A stretch of DNA of 37,186 bases from Clostridiaceae bacterium (GTDB lineage Bacteria; Bacillota; Clostridia; Saccharofermentanales; Fastidiosipilaceae): contig JAAYOA010000042.1 of the NCBI GenBank assembly GCA_012520525.1, positions 1 to 37,186 of the forward strand. The letters run 5' to 3'. Positions 10,918 through 36,648 of this stretch are shown here, in pieces. A program made the translations under genes and the position numbers. Within the stretch, counting starts at the first letter, position 1. Every line of letters begins with the position of its first letter. Below the pieces are notes generated by a model. That model was not told the origin of the DNA and did no database searches. It was given only the letters and a program-made list of their open reading frames with translations.

Positions 10918-12051
10918 TCATGTTCGTCGTCGTCGATGACTGGAAATTGTTATTAACACTGCCAAAGAAATAAAATTAGCTACCATGGCTGATCCCCCCT
11001 GACTGACAAAAGGCAACGGTATACCCGTCACCGGAAAGAGACCCATACACATACCGATATTTTCCACCGAATGAAAAGCAAACACTGTAGAAATACCTGT
11101 CGCCATATACTGCTCCTGGGGAGACATTGCATTGGAAGCGATATAAAGCCCGCGAATTAGATAGATAAATATCAAAATAATTAGGGCTGCCGCTCCCACA
11201 AATCCCATCATTTCCGCCACTGCGGAAAAAATAAAATCTGACTCCTGAACCGGTACCGAAATAAACTCACCGGTGCGGTTACCTGTCAATCCACCTAAAG
11301 CGATTGCCTTTTTCGCCTGATCTACATTGTAGGACGCCTGGGGATCAAATCCGGGATAAAGGAAAGATAGAAAACGAATTTTTTGAAAGTCTTCAAAATA
11401 AAACAGCCAGGCAAAGGGAAAGGCAATTATGAACAGAGAAAGTATTAAAATGACATAGCGAATGCGGATACCCCAAACAAAAATCATAGCTGCCAACAAA
11501 ATCACAAGCACTAGAGCCGTTCCAAAGTCATTTTGATAACCAAGAATTAATAAGAAATGGGGGGCCGTTAACAAAAGTATTAAGCCAAACCCTTTCAAAT
11601 ACGAATAGTCTCGAATTTTAATTTTTTGTAAAATTATCGGCACAAGTATAGCTAAAGCTACTTTGCTAAATTCTGAGGGTTGAATCGAACCTATGACGGG
11701 AATCTCCAACCAACTATTAGAACCCGTCACTGCGGCAATGTCTTTATCGCCAAAGATAGGCAACAACGCCTGCAAAACAATGGCCACACCATACATGATC
11801 CAGCCGATCTTAGGCAAGAAATCCACTCCCATGCGAACAATGATAAAAAGCAATACTAAGCCGATCAGAACTGAAACAACCTGGATTATGATGTTGCGGG
11901 GATAACCGGAGGGAAAATTATTCCGGAGTACTTTATTAAGTGTAAAAAGACCTATTGTGCAAATACATAACACCGGCACAAGCAACCAGTAATCAAGCTG
12001 TCGCCAAAAACTATTATAGCCACCGGCACGTACACTACTTCGACCCATCAT
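10918..12051 (-). CDS. rodA: RodA-type SEDS peptidoglycan glycosyltransferase
   Basis: This is a polytopic SEDS protein of 377 residues that polymerises glycan strands for cell elongation. The C-terminal signature MGLFPVTGIPLPFVSQGGSA and the loop ESDFIFSAVAEMMGFVG, with the conserved Asp, are clear. It is the second SEDS protein of the window. The VSQGGSA variant and the location outside the dcw cluster point to RodA rather than FtsW. The ATG at 12051 lies inside the end of lgt (17-base overlap), preceded by GAGGT, so the two are translated together. A strong terminator follows. Confidence 0.92.
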   Translation of the reverse strand: MMGRSSVRAGGYNSFWRQLDYWLLVPVLCICTIGLFTLNKVLRNNFPSGYPRNIIIQVVSVLIGLVLLFIIVRMGVDFLPKIGWIMYGVAIVLQALLPIFGDKDIAAVTGSNSWLEIPVIGSIQPSEFSKVALAILVPIILQKIKIRDYSYLKGFGLILLLTAPHFLLILGYQNDFGTALVLVILLAAMIFVWGIRIRYVILILSLFIIAFPFAWLFYFEDFQKIRFLSFLYPGFDPQASYNVDQAKKAIALGGLTGNRTGEFISVPVQESDFIFSAVAEMMGFVGAAALIILIFIYLIRGLYIASNAMSPQEQYMATGISTVFAFHSVENIGMCMGLFPVTGIPLPFVSQGGSAMVANFISLAVLITISSHRRRRT

Positions 12052-13159
12052 AGACCTCGCTTGTGGTGCTGTTTTCTGATTTTGGCACTTCTTTTACAGC
12101 ATCCTCGGGTTCTTCCACTGCATCCTCAGACTCTTCCACAGCATCCTCGGACTCTTCCACAACTGCGTTGGTGGTATCAACCACAAAAGCGTCCGTGTCT
12201 TCTATAGCAGCGTCGGTGTCTTTCGCAACAGCATCCGTGTCTTCTACAGCATCATCCGCGTCTTCCACAGCATCTTCGGACTCTTCCGCAGCATCCTCAA
12301 TTAATTCACCTGCCGCTAGAGCCAATCTATAGCGTCTCTGGATGACCGCCAAAAAGGTCAGTCCAGCAAGCACCATAAGTGCCGACAATAACATAGATAC
12401 ACGAATTGTTGTGTTCGGAATTATTAACGGATCAGTTCGGATGCTCTCCACAAAGAATCTCACTGCTCCATATAGCACCAGATACCACGCCACTGTTTCA
12501 CCTTTAATATTAGATTGCCGACGGATACGATGAAGAATCAAGAAGATCATCATATTAGCAACGAACTCATAAAAGAATGTCGGATGAACAGGCGCTAAAG
12601 GATTGATGCCTGGCATATCAACAGTACTTAAATAGCGCATGGTTCCATTGCTTATCATTCCCCATGGTAAATCGGTATTATTACCAAATGCTTCTTGATT
12701 GAAAAAATTTCCCCATCGACCGATCGCTTGTCCCAAAGGAACATATACGACAAAAAAATCAAGAACATTACCCACTTTATACCGTCGCCATTTAGCCATA
12801 ACAATAAGCGCTATTATGCCGCCAATAACACCTCCATAAAAGGCTAAACCTCCATCTCTGGTATCAAAAATTTTCAACCAATTATCAGCGTAACGGTGCC
12901 ACTCAAAAATCACATAGTAAAGTCTCGCAAAGATAATCATAAAAGGCACAATTATGATCATTGCATCCACGGCATGATCACTCTTAAGCCCAAATTTGGG
13001 AGCTTCCTTACTGGCTAAAAAAAGACACAGAACAATGGCTATAGCAATGAGCAAGCCATACCAATAGATATCAAAACCAAACAATCTAAAGGCAACTCTG
13101 TTGACCTCAAGATCGTGGATGCCTAGCCCTGGAAAATGAACGATAAAGTCTGCATTCAT
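12035..13159 (-). CDS. lgt: Lgt, prolipoprotein diacylglyceryl transferase with acidic heptad-repeat tail
   Basis: Lgt moves diacylglycerol from phosphatidylglycerol to the lipobox cysteine of prolipoproteins in the membrane. Seven hydrophobic segments, the Lgt signature GRWGNFFNQEAFG (residues 147-159) and HPTFFYE are present. The start is the ATG at 13159, eight or nine bases after AAGGAG; a longer frame to 13204 lacks a ribosome site. The enzyme proper ends near residue 287. After it come about ten imperfect heptads of the type EDAVEES/DTDAVAK (residues 288-358) and a short polar end. That tail is unusual for Lgt and should lie in the cytoplasm. Total length is 374 residues, against about 270-290 typically. 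Confidence 0.94.
   Translation of the reverse strand: MNADFIVHFPGLGIHDLEVNRVAFRLFGFDIYWYGLLIAIAIVLCLFLASKEAPKFGLKSDHAVDAMIIIVPFMIIFARLYYVIFEWHRYADNWLKIFDTRDGGLAFYGGVIGGIIALIVMAKWRRYKVGNVLDFFVVYVPLGQAIGRWGNFFNQEAFGNNTDLPWGMISNGTMRYLSTVDMPGINPLAPVHPTFFYEFVANMMIFLILHRIRRQSNIKGETVAWYLVLYGAVRFFVESIRTDPLIIPNTTIRVSMLLSALMVLAGLTFLAVIQRRYRLALAAGELIEDAAEESEDAVEDADDAVEDTDAVAKDTDAAIEDTDAFVVDTTNAVVEESEDAVEESEDAVEEPEDAVKEVPKSENSTTSEVYDGSK
12086..12298. repeat. 21-bp imperfect tandem repeats encoding acidic heptads in the lgt tail
   Basis: About ten 21-bp units encode heptads such as EDAVEES, EDAVEDA, DAAIEDT and DAFVVDT on the minus strand, with one eight-residue unit. The DNA repeat gives a long Ser/Thr-rich frame on the plus strand (12063-12332), which is only its complement. 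Tandem repeats like these can change copy number by slippage without breaking the frame. Confidence 0.85.
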
Positions 13160-13227
13160 AGAGTAAATCTCCTTTTGAAAATGTGTGCATCCGTTCGGCG
13201 ACAAAATAGTCGCAGCTCGGCGGAGAA

Positions 13228-14559
13228 TTAATTTACAATAACTCGCGTGGCCGCTTCCGAATCCAGCATAAAATTCATGTGCTCAATCGTATCAGATAAA
13301 TCGATGCGAGTGAATGCCGATGAATAATCAAATAGATCGATATTATTTAAGCGACAAATAGCTGCATTCATACCAACCGTCATAATGTTATCCATGGAAC
13401 GGATAAAACTTCCCATGGCAACACGCTTTTTCATTTGGAACTGGTCTTCATCCAGTTTGCCACCGCGCAGCGTATCAATGATACGGTTATAGACAACTTC
13501 AGCAGCTCGATCTGGCTCCTGGCACACCCCACCGACTAAGACATATGAACAGTCATTTTCCAGATGATAGCTGTAATGAAATCTTTCGTTAACTGCACCT
13601 AGATTGTACAGTTCTTCATATAAGAAAGTTGTTTTGCCAACTATTACATCTAACAAAAGCTGTCCAGCAATCCGGCGAATCATCAAATTAGCTCCGCTAA
13701 TGTGGGACGATCCATTTACTTTGGGATCCTTAAACCCTAAAATATACGAGTCCTGCAAATGGGGCGCCACGATTGAATCGGTGAAACGTGAAGTACCGCG
13801 GGGTTCCACCGGGCTTATATATTCACCTAGTGGCTCTCGATTGTTATTAGGTACGAAATCGTTAATCAACTCCAAAAAACTTTCAACAAATGGTTCATCA
13901 AAACCACCCGCTAAAACAATCGAAAATCCTCGGGGTGTGTAAAAGTTACGATGTACTGCTGCTAAGTGATCCTTTGTAATCAAACCAATGCTGTCGAGCG
14001 TGCCGTTGACATTGTAACGACAGCTGTGATTCTTAAACATATTTTTCATCAAGCGTTCATAACCCAGATACTGGGAGTCCGATTGCAAATAATTCAATTC
14101 TGATTGTACAACTTCCCTCTGTAAATCAAGGTCGCAGTCTCCAATTGTCGGTTCGATCAAAGTAGACAACAAGAGTTTGCATGCTTCACCAAAGTGATCG
14201 GTGCCGAGAACATAAAACATTGTGTGACCATAGTCTGTGTAGGCATCAGCTTCAACCCCAAGGGCTGCAAAGCGACGGATCAATTCACCTGACTGGGTCG
14301 TTTTACCGCTAAAAAGACAGTGCTCCAAGAAGTGAGCCGTGCCAGGAGGAACTTCTATAATTTCATGGGGGTGTTTGACATCGCGAAACTGAGTGTGTAC
14401 CGAACCATAAGGCACGACAACACCGGCAAATTTACGTGAAAAACGGGGTTTAGGAATGACCGTCACCGAAAGTCCGCTGATATGTTGATATGTATGCATC
14501 AGCGAACCTGATAGACGATCTCTTTTATCACTTCTTATAAAGTTCTTTACCTTGATCAA
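13228..14559 (-). CDS. YmfH-like M16 zinc peptidase (catalytic-type subunit)
   Basis: This is an M16 metallopeptidase of the YmfH/processing-peptidase type. The inverted zinc motif HFLEH lies at residues 76-80, and the downstream acidic ligand is in REVVQSELNY (Glu at about 154). It is preceded by the fusion gene whose second half is a YmfF-like partner without HxxEH, so the two probably form the usual active/inactive M16 pair. A TTG at 14559 follows AGAGGTGATC at good spacing; a GTG at 14568 overlaps that ribosome site. The substrate is unknown; in Bacillota such pairs are poorly characterised. The neighbouring lgt gives no firm functional link. Confidence 0.88.
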   Translation of the reverse strand: MIKVKNFIRSDKRDRLSGSLMHTYQHISGLSVTVIPKPRFSRKFAGVVVPYGSVHTQFRDVKHPHEIIEVPPGTAHFLEHCLFSGKTTQSGELIRRFAALGVEADAYTDYGHTMFYVLGTDHFGEACKLLLSTLIEPTIGDCDLDLQREVVQSELNYLQSDSQYLGYERLMKNMFKNHSCRYNVNGTLDSIGLITKDHLAAVHRNFYTPRGFSIVLAGGFDEPFVESFLELINDFVPNNNREPLGEYISPVEPRGTSRFTDSIVAPHLQDSYILGFKDPKVNGSSHISGANLMIRRIAGQLLLDVIVGKTTFLYEELYNLGAVNERFHYSYHLENDCSYVLVGGVCQEPDRAAEVVYNRIIDTLRGGKLDEDQFQMKKRVAMGSFIRSMDNIMTVGMNAAICRLNNIDLFDYSSAFTRIDLSDTIEHMNFMLDSEAATRVIVN

Positions 14560-14584
14560 GCAGATCACCTCTTACCGGAAGATA

Positions 14585-16927
14585 TTAAAGTTTTGCCTTT
14601 TTATTGGGCGCAGAATTAATGATTTGTCCTTTATACAATGTATCAGCCTCTTTTTCTGGCACAAGTACATATGTTACCTGCCTTTTTAAGCGAGATGCCA
14701 ATTCATGAATTTGCTCAGGTGTAATCTGTCGAATTAACGCCAGGGCGCCATCAATATCTATGTTGCGACCCGAAGTTATTTGGTTACGCCGGAAACTGAG
14801 CATATTTTCCATCTCGTCAGAAATAGATATCAACTGATTTTTAATGATTTCAAGGGAACTTGTAAACAAACCCTCTCGGTAACTACCGGTGACTATCTTC
14901 TTCAGTTGTCGATCCACAGCTCTAAGTACTTCGTCCTCTTTCCCCGGTGTCACTATGGCATCTATGTAAAGACACGATAGGAAGGGGAAGGTACGGCAGG
15001 AAATATTATGCACTGCTTCTGGATGCAGTCGCACAATATCATTTAAAAGGGAATGGGCAGCTGCAGCCAACATATTACTCAAAACATCAATCTCGCCCAC
15101 CCGATAGGACGTGTATGGCGGCAGCCCTGAATACATTAAGCCGATTCGCGACATCTCTAAGGGTGCTTTTTCAATAACCTTAATGGGTTGACCGGGTAGG
15201 AAGGGACTCGGTTCCCGTCCCGCTAAACGCCGGATACGACCACCATTATATGACACTTCCTGCCACATATTACTTACTTTATTTTTTAAGTCTGTATCCA
15301 TTCTCCCTGCGACAAAGACTCTAATTTGAGCAGTCTTGAGCCAATTGCGCCAAATTCGAGTTAACTCTGTGGATGACAGGGAAGCGATACAATCAATCGA
15401 ACCAATCATACAGGTCCCGTGGAGTTGATCACCGCAAAGTAAGTCCCGCGTTCTCAGAGACACATAATTTTTATAATCAGATATATAAGTATTCCAGTCA
15501 CTCAAGAAATTAAGTCGTTCCCGTTCTACTATTTCCTCAACTAGAAACCCATCTTCTTCCAAAGGAGGATCTAACAACATTTGGGCAACCAAATCGACCA
15601 GGCTATGGAAGGGCTTAGAGTCGTCCATGCCACGATTGACCGTAGATGCTCTAAAAATTATCGTTTGCCAATCGCCTTCGCGGCGATTGCTGACGTCAAG
15701 CTCAGCACCAAATAACTCGTCAAGACGTTTGGTTAAGGCTGTTTTAGTCGGATACTCCCGGGTGCACGACGACAGTATGCGACCCAAAAATGCGTGGGCA
15801 GCAGAATTACAAGGATCAGCGGGAGAACTTAGACAAACGTTAATCACATTGCTGTGAAAACGATCCGATGGCAGTACCCATGTAGTAATGCCTTCTTGAT
15901 CGGCAATTTTCCACAATTGCTCATATGAATCTAACCAGGTTCGAGCAGTCTGCATATCCTTGCTCATTTGATTGGTCAGCGTTAAGAAACTATTGAAAGA
16001 ACGTTCGGGACGAAGGAAATGCAAGAAACTAACGTTAATATCTATGCCGTAAAGATTACAGTCATAGTCAAAGATCACCGTCTCCATCAAGACATCACTC
16101 TCATCTTGGTTGACAGTTGGACGGGTCCCTATGTTGGTCACCGAGTTATATGTCTTGCCCCCAATTCGCGTGCGCGTCACATATACACCGTATGGCGGGA
16201 CCAGCAAATTAGCAGGTATTCGCACATTGGCCGTTGGCATACCTACAGTGCGCCCTTGAGCATTGCCCGGCACGACGGGACCAGAAATCGAATACTCGGT
16301 GCCGAGTAGGCGGGTTACTTTCTGTAGATCCCCTTCTTTCAAAGCTTTACGTATAATCGTACTAGATACCAATTCTCCGTTACTGAACAAAGGATCAATA
16401 ACTATGACTTCGACGCCTCGCTCTTTGCCCCATTTTTCTAAAAGAGCTACATCGCCGGCAGCTTTGTGACCAAATCTAAAATCATGGCCGACGACAACTA
16501 GTCTTGCTTTTAGCTTGTCATATAATATTTTATTTAAAAAATCTTCTGGGGTCACCTGGGAAAAGGCATCGTCAAACTGTTGGATGTAAGTGCGTTCTAT
16601 ACCTAACTCAAAGAGAACTTCCAGTTTCCAACGAGTGTCTTGAATCAGACCATCAAACAATGATTCGCTGTTCTCACCTCTGAGAAATTTAGGATAGCGA
16701 TCCATTGTAAAAACTGCCGGTTCATAACCGCGCAAAGTACACATATATACTAATGTGCGCAGCAACTCCTTATGACCTATGTGAACACCGTCAAAAAAGC
16801 CGAGGGCAACCCCGCCAAAACCTTCCTGCGGACCCACACCTTTCACATCTTCGTTCAAAATATTACAAGGCAAAACATCGAATGAGTAGTCGCCTAAATG
16901 ATCAAAATCACGATTGATAGTCGTCAA
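14585..16927 (-). CDS. ribF: RibF (riboflavin kinase/FAD synthetase) fused to a YmfF-like M16 domain
   Basis: Residues 1 to about 335 are a complete bifunctional RibF, which makes FMN and FAD. Visible are the nucleotidyltransferase motif GFFDGVHIGH (43-52), GHDFRFGHKAAGD (147-159) and SSTIIRKAL (188-196), then the kinase motif GNAQGRTVGMPTANV (221-235), PYGVYV and TNIGTRPTV. From about residue 345 to the end is an M16 domain of the YmfF type (TREYPTKTALTKRLDELFGAEL, ERERLNFLSD), with no HxxEH zinc site. The two halves lie in one open frame with no start codon or ribosome site standing out at the junction near 15907. The gene begins with TTG at 16927 inside the end of truB. RibF is normally about 310 residues and separate, so this 780-residue fusion is unusual. 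Confidence 0.9.
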   Translation of the reverse strand: MTTINRDFDHLGDYSFDVLPCNILNEDVKGVGPQEGFGGVALGFFDGVHIGHKELLRTLVYMCTLRGYEPAVFTMDRYPKFLRGENSESLFDGLIQDTRWKLEVLFELGIERTYIQQFDDAFSQVTPEDFLNKILYDKLKARLVVVGHDFRFGHKAAGDVALLEKWGKERGVEVIVIDPLFSNGELVSSTIIRKALKEGDLQKVTRLLGTEYSISGPVVPGNAQGRTVGMPTANVRIPANLLVPPYGVYVTRTRIGGKTYNSVTNIGTRPTVNQDESDVLMETVIFDYDCNLYGIDINVSFLHFLRPERSFNSFLTLTNQMSKDMQTARTWLDSYEQLWKIADQEGITTWVLPSDRFHSNVINVCLSSPADPCNSAAHAFLGRILSSCTREYPTKTALTKRLDELFGAELDVSNRREGDWQTIIFRASTVNRGMDDSKPFHSLVDLVAQMLLDPPLEEDGFLVEEIVERERLNFLSDWNTYISDYKNYVSLRTRDLLCGDQLHGTCMIGSIDCIASLSSTELTRIWRNWLKTAQIRVFVAGRMDTDLKNKVSNMWQEVSYNGGRIRRLAGREPSPFLPGQPIKVIEKAPLEMSRIGLMYSGLPPYTSYRVGEIDVLSNMLAAAAHSLLNDIVRLHPEAVHNISCRTFPFLSCLYIDAIVTPGKEDEVLRAVDRQLKKIVTGSYREGLFTSSLEIIKNQLISISDEMENMLSFRRNQITSGRNIDIDGALALIRQITPEQIHELASRLKRQVTYVLVPEKEADTLYKGQIINSAPNKKAKL

Positions 16928-34215: not shown

Positions 34216-35454
34216 CTACAGCCGACCAGTCGGCAAAGTGACCACTTCCGATCGTATCCTGGGCATCTTTGTATTCAAAGTCTGACCGGCATAACAGACA
34301 GTGTGTTTACCATAACGGCAGTTTAATTCATAAATCGCCCGATCTAAACGTTCAAAATGATCGTGACGTCTATACTCCTGCAGATAAGACTGTTGACGCG
34401 GCACCCGGGCGGATATCAAGGCAATTGCTCTAATAGTCAAGGCGCGAACTTGTTGACAGTACCAGCTAAAATTAGCACGAAACAACTCCATCGCGACGTG
34501 ACATAGACGCCGACTGGATTGCGTCGGAAATGGCAACGGAGATTGATGCTGACGGGTGTACAAGTCGTTCGTTTTTATTGTGACTTGAATCCCCCTGGCG
34601 CACAATTCATATTCAAAAAGTCGCCGCGATACTTCCTGCGCTAATTCCTGCATAATACCTTGAACTTCTCGCTCGTTATGCAAGTCAGCTCTACAGGTGA
34701 CGCCGTTACCGACGCTCTTGATCGGCAACGCCTCGCCAACTTCTAATACCGGAGCATAATCTCTGCCGTTAGCAAAATGCCAGAGATAAATGCCATTAAT
34801 ACCGAGTAAATTGCGCAAAAATTCTGGGTCACAGGCGGCTAATTGTCCAAGGGTATATATATTAAAACGCTGTAACCGTCGCCGGGTGGCCCGACCGATC
34901 CCAATCATCATGTCAACCGGCAGCGGCCAAACAATCTCACGAAATTCATCTGGCGCAATCACCGTCGTAGCGTCCGGCTTCTTCAGGTCACTGCCGAGCT
35001 TAGCAAACACCTTATTAAAACTCACACCAACCGATGCCGTCAGATTTAAATCCTGCTTGACATGCCGTCGCAGTCGATCGGCTATATCAATGCCGTCACC
35101 TAACAGATGGGTACTGCCCGTCACATCCAACCAACACTCATCCAGACCGAAAGATTCCACCTGACTCGTATACTGGTTATAGATCTCACGACTGCGACGG
35201 GAATAGTAAATATATTTCTCATAATTAGGTGGCACGATTAAAATATCCGGACACTTTTGTCTCGCCTCCCATAGAGCCTCGCCAGTCTTGACGCCACATT
35301 TCTTAGCCTCTTCCGATTTTGCTAAAACAATACCGTGACGATCTTCTTGGGAGCCACCTACTGCAAGGGGTCTGCCGCGCCATTCTGGATGATCAATCAA
35401 CTCTACCGATGCATAGAAACTGTTCATATCAATATGGAGAATCGTCCTTTTCAT
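34216..35454 (-). CDS. Y-family translesion DNA polymerase (DinB/Pol IV-like)
   Basis: This error-prone polymerase copies damaged DNA. The palm motif HIDMNSFYASVE (residues 7-18, catalytic Asp9), ESFGLDECWLDVT (Asp105, Glu106) and SVGVSFNKVFAKLGSDLKKPD are intact. They are followed by the helix-hairpin-helix region around IGIGRATRRRLQRFN and the little-finger domain, 412 residues in all. The ESFGLDECWLDVT form is the variant seen in many clostridial Y-family enzymes rather than the classic YSIDEAFLDVT, so I leave the symbol blank. The ATG at 35454 follows GGGGAAGG. It is divergent from the XRE-ImmA pair and shares their control region, suggesting regulation by that repressor. Confidence 0.93.
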   Translation of the reverse strand: MKRTILHIDMNSFYASVELIDHPEWRGRPLAVGGSQEDRHGIVLAKSEEAKKCGVKTGEALWEARQKCPDILIVPPNYEKYIYYSRRSREIYNQYTSQVESFGLDECWLDVTGSTHLLGDGIDIADRLRRHVKQDLNLTASVGVSFNKVFAKLGSDLKKPDATTVIAPDEFREIVWPLPVDMMIGIGRATRRRLQRFNIYTLGQLAACDPEFLRNLLGINGIYLWHFANGRDYAPVLEVGEALPIKSVGNGVTCRADLHNEREVQGIMQELAQEVSRRLFEYELCARGIQVTIKTNDLYTRQHQSPLPFPTQSSRRLCHVAMELFRANFSWYCQQVRALTIRAIALISARVPRQQSYLQEYRRHDHFERLDRAIYELNCRYGKHTVCYAGQTLNTKMPRIRSEVVTLPTGRL

Positions 35455-35500
35455 AATCTGTCCTTCCCCTGTCTTTCAACTGAACTGTGTCACCTCTGAC

Positions 35501-35529
35501 TTGACAATAACTTGCACTTTTTGTACCAT
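35501..35529 (+). promoter_or_regulatory. Promoter of the XRE-ImmA pair
   Basis: A consensus -35 TTGACA (35501-35506) and TACCAT (35524-35529) are spaced by 17 bp. The first GTGCA-type dyad (arms 35512-35518 and 35531-35537) covers the spacer and the -10, as expected for a repressor blocking its own promoter. On the opposite strand a weaker TACAAA -10 for the polymerase falls in the same place. Confidence 0.6.
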
Positions 35530-35610
35530 TAGTGCAACAGTTTCGCACCTTCTCTACGTGGTGCAATGATAGTGCATTATTTATGCACTGTCAACTGTGA
35601 ATTGGTGCAA
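35512..35610. promoter_or_regulatory. Cluster of GTGCA-type dyads: candidate XRE operators
   Basis: At least six GTGCA/TGCAC half-sites fall in 100 bp. Dyad 1: TTGCACT (35512-35518) and AGTGCAA (35531-35537). Dyad 2: GCACC (35545-35549) and GGTGC (35560-35564). Dyad 3: AGTGCAT (35571-35577) and ATGCACT (35583-35589), with the symmetry reaching 9 of 10 bases over 35568-35592. A lone GGTGCAA ends at 35610. Dyad centres are about 25-30 bp apart. The cluster lies between the divergent starts; binding by the XRE protein is inferred. Confidence 0.65.
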
Positions 35611-35691
35611 GACAGATTTTTCATTGAAAATCTAATGGATCAGCAGGAAAGTTTTAACTATAGTCCCATCCGACCCAGACAGGAGATAAAC

Positions 35692-36117
35692 ATGACATTA
35701 GGGGATAAATTAAGAAAAGCGCGTGAAGAGCGCGGCGTATCTCAGGCCGTTGCGGCCGCAGGCGTCGGCGTTTCCCTGCGCACATATAAGAGCTATGAAT
35801 TAAACGAATCTACACCACAAAATCGACAAATTATGGAACGTCTCGCCGACTACTACGGTCTTAATATCAATTATCTTTTGACCGTAGGCGATGATTTTGT
35901 TTTTTCTGCAGAGGAGAAATATGGCTCGAAAGGTCGTCGCGAAGCCCGAGAACTGATCGACCAAGTGATCGGTCTCTTCGCTGGAGGAGAGATGAGTGAA
36001 ATAGATCGAGATGAGGCAATGCAGGCGATCCAACAGGCGTACTGGGACGCCAAGAAAGAAAATACAAAGTACACCCCAAAGCGTTATCGAGATGACAGCG
36101 ATAAAAAAGAAAAATAA
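35692..36117 (+). CDS. XRE-family HTH repressor paired with ImmA/IrrE
   Basis: This 141-residue protein has an N-terminal Cro/CI-type helix-turn-helix (residues about 4-62, GVSQAVAAAGVGVSLRTYKSYE). A helical C-terminal part follows (RREARELIDQVIGLFAGGEMSEIDRDEAMQAI ...) with a basic, Lys-rich end. I start at the ATG at 35692 because AGGAG lies six bases upstream; an ATG at 35566 in the same frame would run through the operator region. The metallopeptidase follows after nine bases. XRE-ImmA pairs are known in ICEBs1 (ImmR-ImmA) and, as DdrO-IrrE, in Deinococcus, where the peptidase cleaves the repressor. The same relation is inferred here. Confidence 0.9.
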   Translation: MTLGDKLRKAREERGVSQAVAAAGVGVSLRTYKSYELNESTPQNRQIMERLADYYGLNINYLLTVGDDFVFSAEEKYGSKGRREARELIDQVIGLFAGGEMSEIDRDEAMQAIQQAYWDAKKENTKYTPKRYRDDSDKKEK

Positions 36118-36126
36118 GCGGATTCT

Positions 36127-36648
36127 ATGTTACCTAATGAATTCATAAAAAAGAAAGCTGCTCAGCTAGTGCGTATTCACGAAACGAATGACCCTCAGCA
36201 ATTATGTCATAAAATGGGCATTACGATCTATTACCGCCCCTTTGACACCTTGCTGGGTATGTATGCCGTTATTAAACGCAAGCGCTGCATTTTTGTAAAA
36301 GATGATTTAGATGAACACCAAGAGCGCCTTGTCATTGCCCACGAAATCGGACACGATCAGTTGCACAAAGCACTGCTCCGCGAACAAAAAATATGGCAGG
36401 AGTTTACATTGTTGGACATCACCACCCAAGCCGAGAGGGAAGCCAACCTCTTTGCCGCCCATCTCCTGCTAGATGATGACGACGTGATCTCAATGCTGCG
36501 AGACGGCTACACCGATGAACAGATCGCCCGTCTATCTAAGGTCGATTTAAATTTAGTTTTGCTCAAATTATTATCTATGGAAGATCGCTTGGGAACCACA
36601 TTAAACCTGCGCCATCAACCACCTAGCGATTTTATAGCTGAGATATGA
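36127..36648 (+). CDS. ImmA/IrrE-type zinc metallopeptidase (COG2856)
   Basis: The 173-residue protein contains HEIGH at residues 72-76 (zinc ligands His72 and His76, catalytic Glu73). The third ligand region is EREANLFAAHLLL (Glu103 or Glu105), as in ImmA and IrrE. Members cleave XRE-type repressors after DNA damage or other triggers. It lacks the extra C-terminal sensor domain of Deinococcus IrrE, so the trigger must come from elsewhere. It is coupled to the XRE gene, with a nine-base gap and only a weak ribosome site. There are no phage or conjugation genes nearby, which argues for a chromosomal rather than element-encoded switch. Confidence 0.93.
   Translation: MLPNEFIKKKAAQLVRIHETNDPQQLCHKMGITIYYRPFDTLLGMYAVIKRKRCIFVKDDLDEHQERLVIAHEIGHDQLHKALLREQKIWQEFTLLDITTQAEREANLFAAHLLLDDDDVISMLRDGYTDEQIARLSKVDLNLVLLKLLSMEDRLGTTLNLRHQPPSDFIAEI

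Follow-up and report, generated by a model that had tools for sequence, protein, structure and literature searches.

The window analysed here is the whole stretch of 37,186 nucleotides at positions 1 to 37,186 of contig JAAYOA010000042.1, from a Clostridiaceae bacterium. It carries a module in which the gene for a Y-family translesion polymerase is divergent from that for an XRE repressor, with the gene for an ImmA/IrrE-family metallopeptidase directly 3' of the repressor gene on the same strand. All three genes are intact. A preliminary description of this DNA, made from the sequence alone, held that the polymerase shares its control region with the repressor and the peptidase, and the gene calls, the Pfam matches and the intergenic promoters agree on this arrangement. 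The genes are the following (aa, amino acids):

34216-35454, minus strand: Y-family translesion polymerase, 412 aa, YqjH/YqjW-like, with Pfam IMS, IMS_C and IMS_HHH (E 1.8e-45)
35692-36117, plus strand: XRE repressor, 141 aa, ImmR/SinR-like, with Pfam HTH_3/HTH_19/HTH_31
36127-36648, plus strand: ImmA/IrrE-family (M78) metallopeptidase, 173 aa, with Pfam Peptidase_M78 (E 1.1e-15)

The open reading frame (ORF) listed for the XRE gene begins at 35566. The conserved protein begins at the ATG at 35692, right behind an AGGAG ribosome site, and this start was adopted because of that site and the alignment of relatives. The control region is therefore 35455-35691.

Facing promoters and candidate operators

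The control region contains two promoters and three candidate operators, the latter without strand:

35501-35529, plus strand: promoter toward the XRE and ImmA genes, TTGACA-17-TACCAT, with a layout that is kept in 31 of 36 module intergenic regions
35566-35594, minus strand: promoter toward the polymerase gene, TTGACA-17-TATCAT, of sigma-A type like the XRE promoter, which it faces, the outer edges of the two being 94 bp apart
35572-35588: main candidate operator Oy, GTGCATTATTTATGCAC, a palindrome that takes up the whole 17-bp spacer of the polymerase promoter
35532-35548: second candidate operator, GTGCAACAGTTTCGCAC, which covers the region where transcription from the XRE promoter would start; the best match to Oy in the locus (10/15), weaker than in other loci
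35561-35577: third candidate operator, GTGCAATGATAGTGCAT, which covers the -10 box of the polymerase promoter and shares positions with Oy, placed by eye and by the positions of GTGCAA/AGTGCA half-sites

The two promoters of the window point toward each other, with both -10 boxes inside. In the 31 distinct intergenic regions of divergent trios that keep this layout, the outer edges lie 78-98 bp apart, compared with 0.06 regions expected from dinucleotide shuffles; this range was chosen after the data had been seen, and the excess is far beyond what that freedom could provide. The layout is the same in the chromosomal copies of the module.

A first test for operators counted repeated 6-mers across a fixed stretch of 260 nt; its results were mixed, and a test of the promoter spacers superseded it. 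In 31 loci the spacers of the polymerase promoter are palindromic beyond chance (p = 6e-4), and they are repeated elsewhere in their own region with a mean of 11.7/15 versus 8.95 for shuffled spacers (Fisher p 1.8e-17), the repeat being individually supported at p <= 0.05 in 20 of them. For palindromes, neither the XRE-promoter spacer (p 0.92) nor the centre of the region (p 0.20) gave a significant result and, for this reason, a palindrome is claimed for the polymerase-promoter spacer only. The sequence of the spacer is specific to each lineage, with CACAAACCGTTTGTG, ACGCAATTAACTTGCGT and GAAGTT types, which is as expected if each repressor evolved its own site. The Oy pattern, GTGCA-N7-TGCAC, occurs a single time in the 2.3-Mb assembly, so that the switch looks local rather than part of a regulon.

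Repressor, peptidase and polymerase

The helix-turn-helix (HTH) domain of the XRE protein is close to those of ICEBs1 ImmR and of phage repressors, and the DNA-binding domain of ICEBs1 ImmR is among its best solved relatives (E 1.4e-14). In the structure model the C-terminal part consists of two helices, residues 68-95 and 103-123, joined by a loop, and the alignment of relatives places a near-invariant LFAGG (residues 95-99) in this interhelix loop. ImmR is cut by ImmA at F95-M96, in the linker of two predicted C-terminal helices (PMC8960796). Given that the LFAGG loop corresponds in position to this site, an ImmA-like cut is predicted at F96-A97 of the XRE protein. With DdrO the HTH part alone aligns well, and near full-length matches have a root-mean-square deviation above 10 Å; a Foldseek search with the C-terminal part of the XRE protein gave no confident match.

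The peptidase was described at the outset as keeping HEIGH and a downstream Glu. These residues, H72-E73-I-G-H76 and E103, which make up an HEXXH motif with its third Glu, are indeed invariant in 28 relatives. The model (mean predicted local distance difference test score, pLDDT, of 90.9) shows an M78 domain and a short helical domain, and its closest folds are PprI/IrrE 8sln and 3dti (template modelling, TM, score 0.65-0.66), followed by CapP 7t5t; a CapP profile also matches the window peptidase with E 7e-14. Neither Pfam nor the model places a GAF-like domain, or any C-terminal domain, in this protein. In PprI the GAF-like domain comprises residues 177-277, and PprI without it neither bound single-stranded DNA (ssDNA) nor was activated by it (PMC10904395). 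Because this domain is missing, one cannot simply assume that the window peptidase senses its signal by the route of PprI, and ImmA, which is also short, is a better parallel than IrrE. Both parallels had been drawn in the preliminary description; the one with ImmA is the closer, and a pair of the ImmA-ImmR kind, with candidate operators over both promoters, is supported; IrrE is not the best comparison.

The polymerase keeps the catalytic motifs DMNSFYASVE and DECWLD and is matched by the NCBIfam models for DNA polymerase IV. Its beta-clamp motif is degenerate (QQSYL, residues 354-358). The tail contains a motif resembling the RecA N-terminus (RecA-NT), RLDRAIYELNCRYGKHTV, at residues 369-386, which coincides with a weak match to DUF4113 (residues 368-396, E 0.026); the RecA-NT motif of Y-family polymerases has been described previously (PMC6511836). 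Both the RecA-NT and the clamp motif are found in most module polymerases. A polymerase with these two motifs probably has the clamp and RecA as partners at stalled forks and, for the same reason, may need RecA for its activity. YolD, the usual partner of YqjW/UvrX polymerases, was not found above the cut-off in the window's own genome or in the 12 other genomes tested; it adjoins one plasmid copy of the trio.

Recurrence, mobility and LexA

Recurrence was assessed from an M78 search of 58 relatives, an XRE profile run over 291 genomes of the class and a scan with a five-sequence XRE alignment, and three locus surveys were scored by our own hidden Markov models for XRE, peptidase and Y-family polymerase. 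The M78 search recovered the divergent polymerase/XRE/peptidase order in other genera as well. XRE and ImmA genes are adjacent in 49/50, 66/67 and 9/9 XRE loci of the three surveys, and in 22, 40 and 8 of these, respectively, the XRE locus has a Y-family polymerase no more than about 3 kb away. The full-length trio is present in 58 distinct loci, mostly with the polymerase divergent, and 49 of the 58 have the core polymerase type; recurrence in Clostridia, which had been put forward as a possibility, is thus borne out by a search of clostridial genomes for the three-gene order. Within the taxonomic family and order of the window's host, the polymerase is divergent in 7 of 9 XRE/ImmA loci. Since a genome of about 2.5 Mb has one or two Y-family genes, the closeness of the trio is not due to chance. 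Two distant polymerase subfamilies share the XRE/ImmA pair, the core one being mostly divergent and the other mostly downstream. Among the core loci the distances of the XRE, ImmA and polymerase proteins correlate (r 0.43-0.65, permutation p 0.001), with a contribution from the shared ancestry of the hosts.

These data bear on whether the XRE and peptidase genes could form a toxin-antitoxin-like pair with the polymerase as an unrelated neighbour. Pairs of COG2856 and Xre have been listed as putative toxin-antitoxin modules (PMC2701414), but the recurrent divergent linkage to a polymerase and the operator-like repeats common to both promoters in dozens of loci make this explanation extremely improbable, and it was disfavoured on account of this linkage and the shared promoters.

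Related XRE/ImmA pairs that have no polymerase adjoin genes of conjugative elements, namely a CD1115-type VirD4 coupling protein and sigma-70-like genes. Two complete phage genomes, PV036429 and PV036445, carry the trio itself, as do plasmids of Ruminococcus albus, Campylobacter and Monoglobus. The flanking genes of the window module have none in common with the module loci of its family. On these grounds the trio could be a mobile-element control cassette, with XRE/ImmA as an immunity switch and the polymerase as a passenger aiding DNA replication of the element or its survival of damage, and the window copy as a domesticated or stranded remnant. Plasmid-borne umuDC-type genes are a parallel for such a passenger. 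Nonetheless, the 37-kb window showed no gene for an integrase or for transfer and none of a phage, the three genes are intact and chromosomal copies retain the same promoter layout, and we regard this explanation as a tentative one, with somewhat less than an even chance of being right. It speaks to where the trio came from more than to how it works, and it does not conflict with an ImmR/ImmA-type switch. The most economical account is one in which mobile elements supplied an ImmR/ImmA cassette that took control of translesion polymerases and then spread and settled repeatedly, the window holding a settled copy. The absence of flanking mobile genes noted in the preliminary description stands, but the name of a resident chromosomal SOS-like circuit is not supported in that form, given that the neighbours are not shared with the loci of relatives, the sister pairs sit in conjugative elements and the trio is carried by phages and plasmids; the module is better named an ImmR/ImmA cassette controlling a mutagenic polymerase.

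In loci L142, L143, L147, L149 and relatives, the polymerase opposite XRE/ImmA is replaced by a helical-looking protein family of about 190 aa (MRTTKTMKSISLMYDGMHLNEE...) with no clear Pfam match, and some of these loci adjoin conjugation genes. In L009 (G018), L045 (G171) and L048 (G203) the polymerase is split over at least two frames, as is the peptidase of L048; these copies appear to be decaying.

Mutagenic polymerases are usually regarded as LexA-controlled. A search of 35441-35700 that allowed up to 3 mismatches gave no box of the form CGAAC-N4-GTTCG, even though LexA is present in this genome and its recA has a perfect LexA box, CGAACGATTGTTCG; the statement that no LexA-like box lies between the genes is therefore upheld. 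Among 39 module regions a perfect box occurs in one, that of locus L004 in the relative G007 (CGAACAGTTGTTCG), and genomes such as G006, G008 and G013 carry the trio while showing no LexA match. That the polymerase truly belongs to the LexA regulon, with XRE/ImmA merely tuning it, would draw on the presence of LexA in the host and on the box of G007; against the missing box in the window, the single perfect box among the module regions and the trios of LexA-less genomes, it is very unlikely. The circuit probably lies outside the LexA regulon of the host. In L004, the trio with the perfect box raises the possibility that some modules are under double control.

G002, G006, G008, G009 and G013, as well as about 73 of the 291 class genomes, have no match to the LexA DNA-binding domain, and loss of LexA seems common in Clostridia, though some of these genomes are incomplete. 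Of 42 genomes with the pair, about 19 show no LexA match, versus 73 of 291 overall; for the trio the count is about 8 of 22. These hand counts leave relatedness uncontrolled, and no link between LexA loss and the module is claimed from them. G008 has neither a LexA nor an S24 match, and its recA promoter contains GAACTTTAGTTC, a recurrence of the module palindrome GAACTTAAGTTC. The shared palindrome, GAACTT(T/A)AGTTC, is found at L091 / G008:C1:919394 and at L005:3253-3264, with only three exact sites in the G008 genome. A generic 12-mer test of this shared box was not significant (p 0.30), and for this reason it is a lead only; the recA promoters of 13 other genomes have nothing notable in common with their modules. 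It is a rather remote prospect, resting on the G008 recA palindrome, that the family spreads horizontally among Clostridia, their phages and plasmids as a mutagenesis switch in its own right and has taken over SOS duty in lineages that lost LexA.

Elsewhere in the window, the neighbours of the module are genes for an M16C (PreP-like) peptidase and a DUF6688 protein, and the remaining genes look house-keeping (cell wall, translation, division). A 780-aa ORF at 14585-16927 (minus strand) is a fusion of RibF (residues 40-332; FAD synthetase and riboflavin kinase) with an M16 peptidase-like half and directly precedes a second M16 gene (13228-14568); the fusion is unusual and may be an assembly error. 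Lgt (prolipoprotein diacylglyceryl transferase; 12035-13204, minus strand) has an acidic repetitive tail of about 90 residues beyond its Pfam domain.

A proposed switch and its comparison with known systems

Repression and anti-repression are strongly suggested by the conservation described above, and it is probable that the module is a self-contained switch of the ImmR/ImmA type, in which XRE represses both the polymerase and its own operon and cleavage by the peptidase releases both, giving a burst of polymerase. In growing cells, the ImmR-like XRE protein would bind the lineage-specific palindrome repeated over the two face-to-face sigma-A promoters and, once bound, would shut off the polymerase and the XRE/peptidase operon. 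A signal, most likely DNA damage, would activate the ImmA-like metallopeptidase, which would cut XRE in the LFAGG loop between the C-terminal helices (at the predicted F96-A97), so that the dimer would fall apart. Both promoters could then fire, yielding a burst of mutagenic polymerase together with fresh repressor and peptidase that would reset the switch. Binding by the repressor, its cleavage and a mutagenic outcome are what we infer for this module.

DNA damage as the signal is taken by analogy from the precedents of IrrE, CapP and ImmA and from the cargo. A real switch could instead answer a cell-cell signal, the metal or redox state or an antirepressor protein, with the polymerase serving stress-induced mutation and not damage tolerance. 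ICEBs1 ImmA also answers RapI/PhrI (PMC10233336), zinc/redox control of IrrE has been reported (PMC7907104) and the window peptidase does not have the GAF-like ssDNA-binding part of PprI; however, the characterised IrrE/DdrO, CapP/CapH and ImmA/ImmR systems all answer DNA damage, and the controlled gene encodes a lesion-bypass enzyme with a RecA-NT motif. A signal other than damage is thus unlikely.

Several points weigh against a damage-responsive switch of the ImmR/ImmA type. The peptidase lacks the GAF-like domain that PprI needs for activation by ssDNA. In the broad surveys roughly one XRE/ImmA pair in two has no neighbouring polymerase, and the pair itself is therefore not specific to lesion bypass. 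The operator repeats of this locus, taken alone, are not significant (p 0.26) and are weaker than those of many relatives.

If the proposed switch is true, stress-induced mutation could be triggered without SOS and transferred between hosts (gut Clostridia, phages, plasmids), and blocking SOS would not stop mutation in Clostridia carrying the switch. How short ImmA peptidases can sense DNA damage when they have no GAF-like domain of the IrrE kind could also be studied on the module, as a compact test case of two proteins.

No report of a linkage between a polymerase and XRE/ImmA was found in the open-access papers searched. The Y-family polymerase operons with YolD or ImuB-C (PMC6511836) contain related polymerase groups with the RecA-NT motif and differ in that the window genome has no YolD; control of Y-family polymerases by XRE/ImmA is not mentioned in the text of that paper. 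XRE regulators are not mentioned in the main text of the two surveys of bacterial Y-family polymerases. A dedicated repressor beside a lesion-bypass polymerase, often on mobile DNA, is known where umuC lies next to LexA-like repressors (HdiR; plasmid mucAB/rumAB types). These repressors cut themselves with RecA through a serine/lysine S24 domain, whereas the module has a separate metallopeptidase and a repressor without an S24 domain.

The module is closest to ImmR/ImmA, and IrrE/DdrO and CapP/CapH work alike. CapP/CapH of the cyclic-oligonucleotide-based anti-phage signalling system (CBASS) combines an M78 peptidase with an XRE repressor and answers DNA damage, but it guards an anti-phage operon, CapP is longer and the cargo is unrelated. 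With IrrE(PprI)/DdrO of Deinococcus the module shares the peptidase fold (TM 0.66), the HEXXH motif with a downstream Glu, an XRE repressor and the proposed LexA-free release of DNA repair genes. It differs in the missing GAF-like domain, in the adjacency of the repressor and peptidase genes and in having one operator locus in the genome rather than a regulon of about twenty genes; a review of IrrE/DdrO assigns the translesion cassette of Deinococcus to LexA and not DdrO (PMC8072749). The ImmR/ImmA pairs of ICEBs1 (Bacillus subtilis) and TnSmu1 control the transfer genes of their elements, whereas the module would control a Y-family polymerase and has no element genes around the window copy. 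What the module has in common with them is an adjacent XRE repressor and short M78 peptidase, two opposed promoters with several repressor sites (in the module, candidate operators), a helix-loop-helix repressor C-terminus with the cut site in the loop (in the module, predicted) and, through the sister pairs of its family, a seat in conjugative elements.

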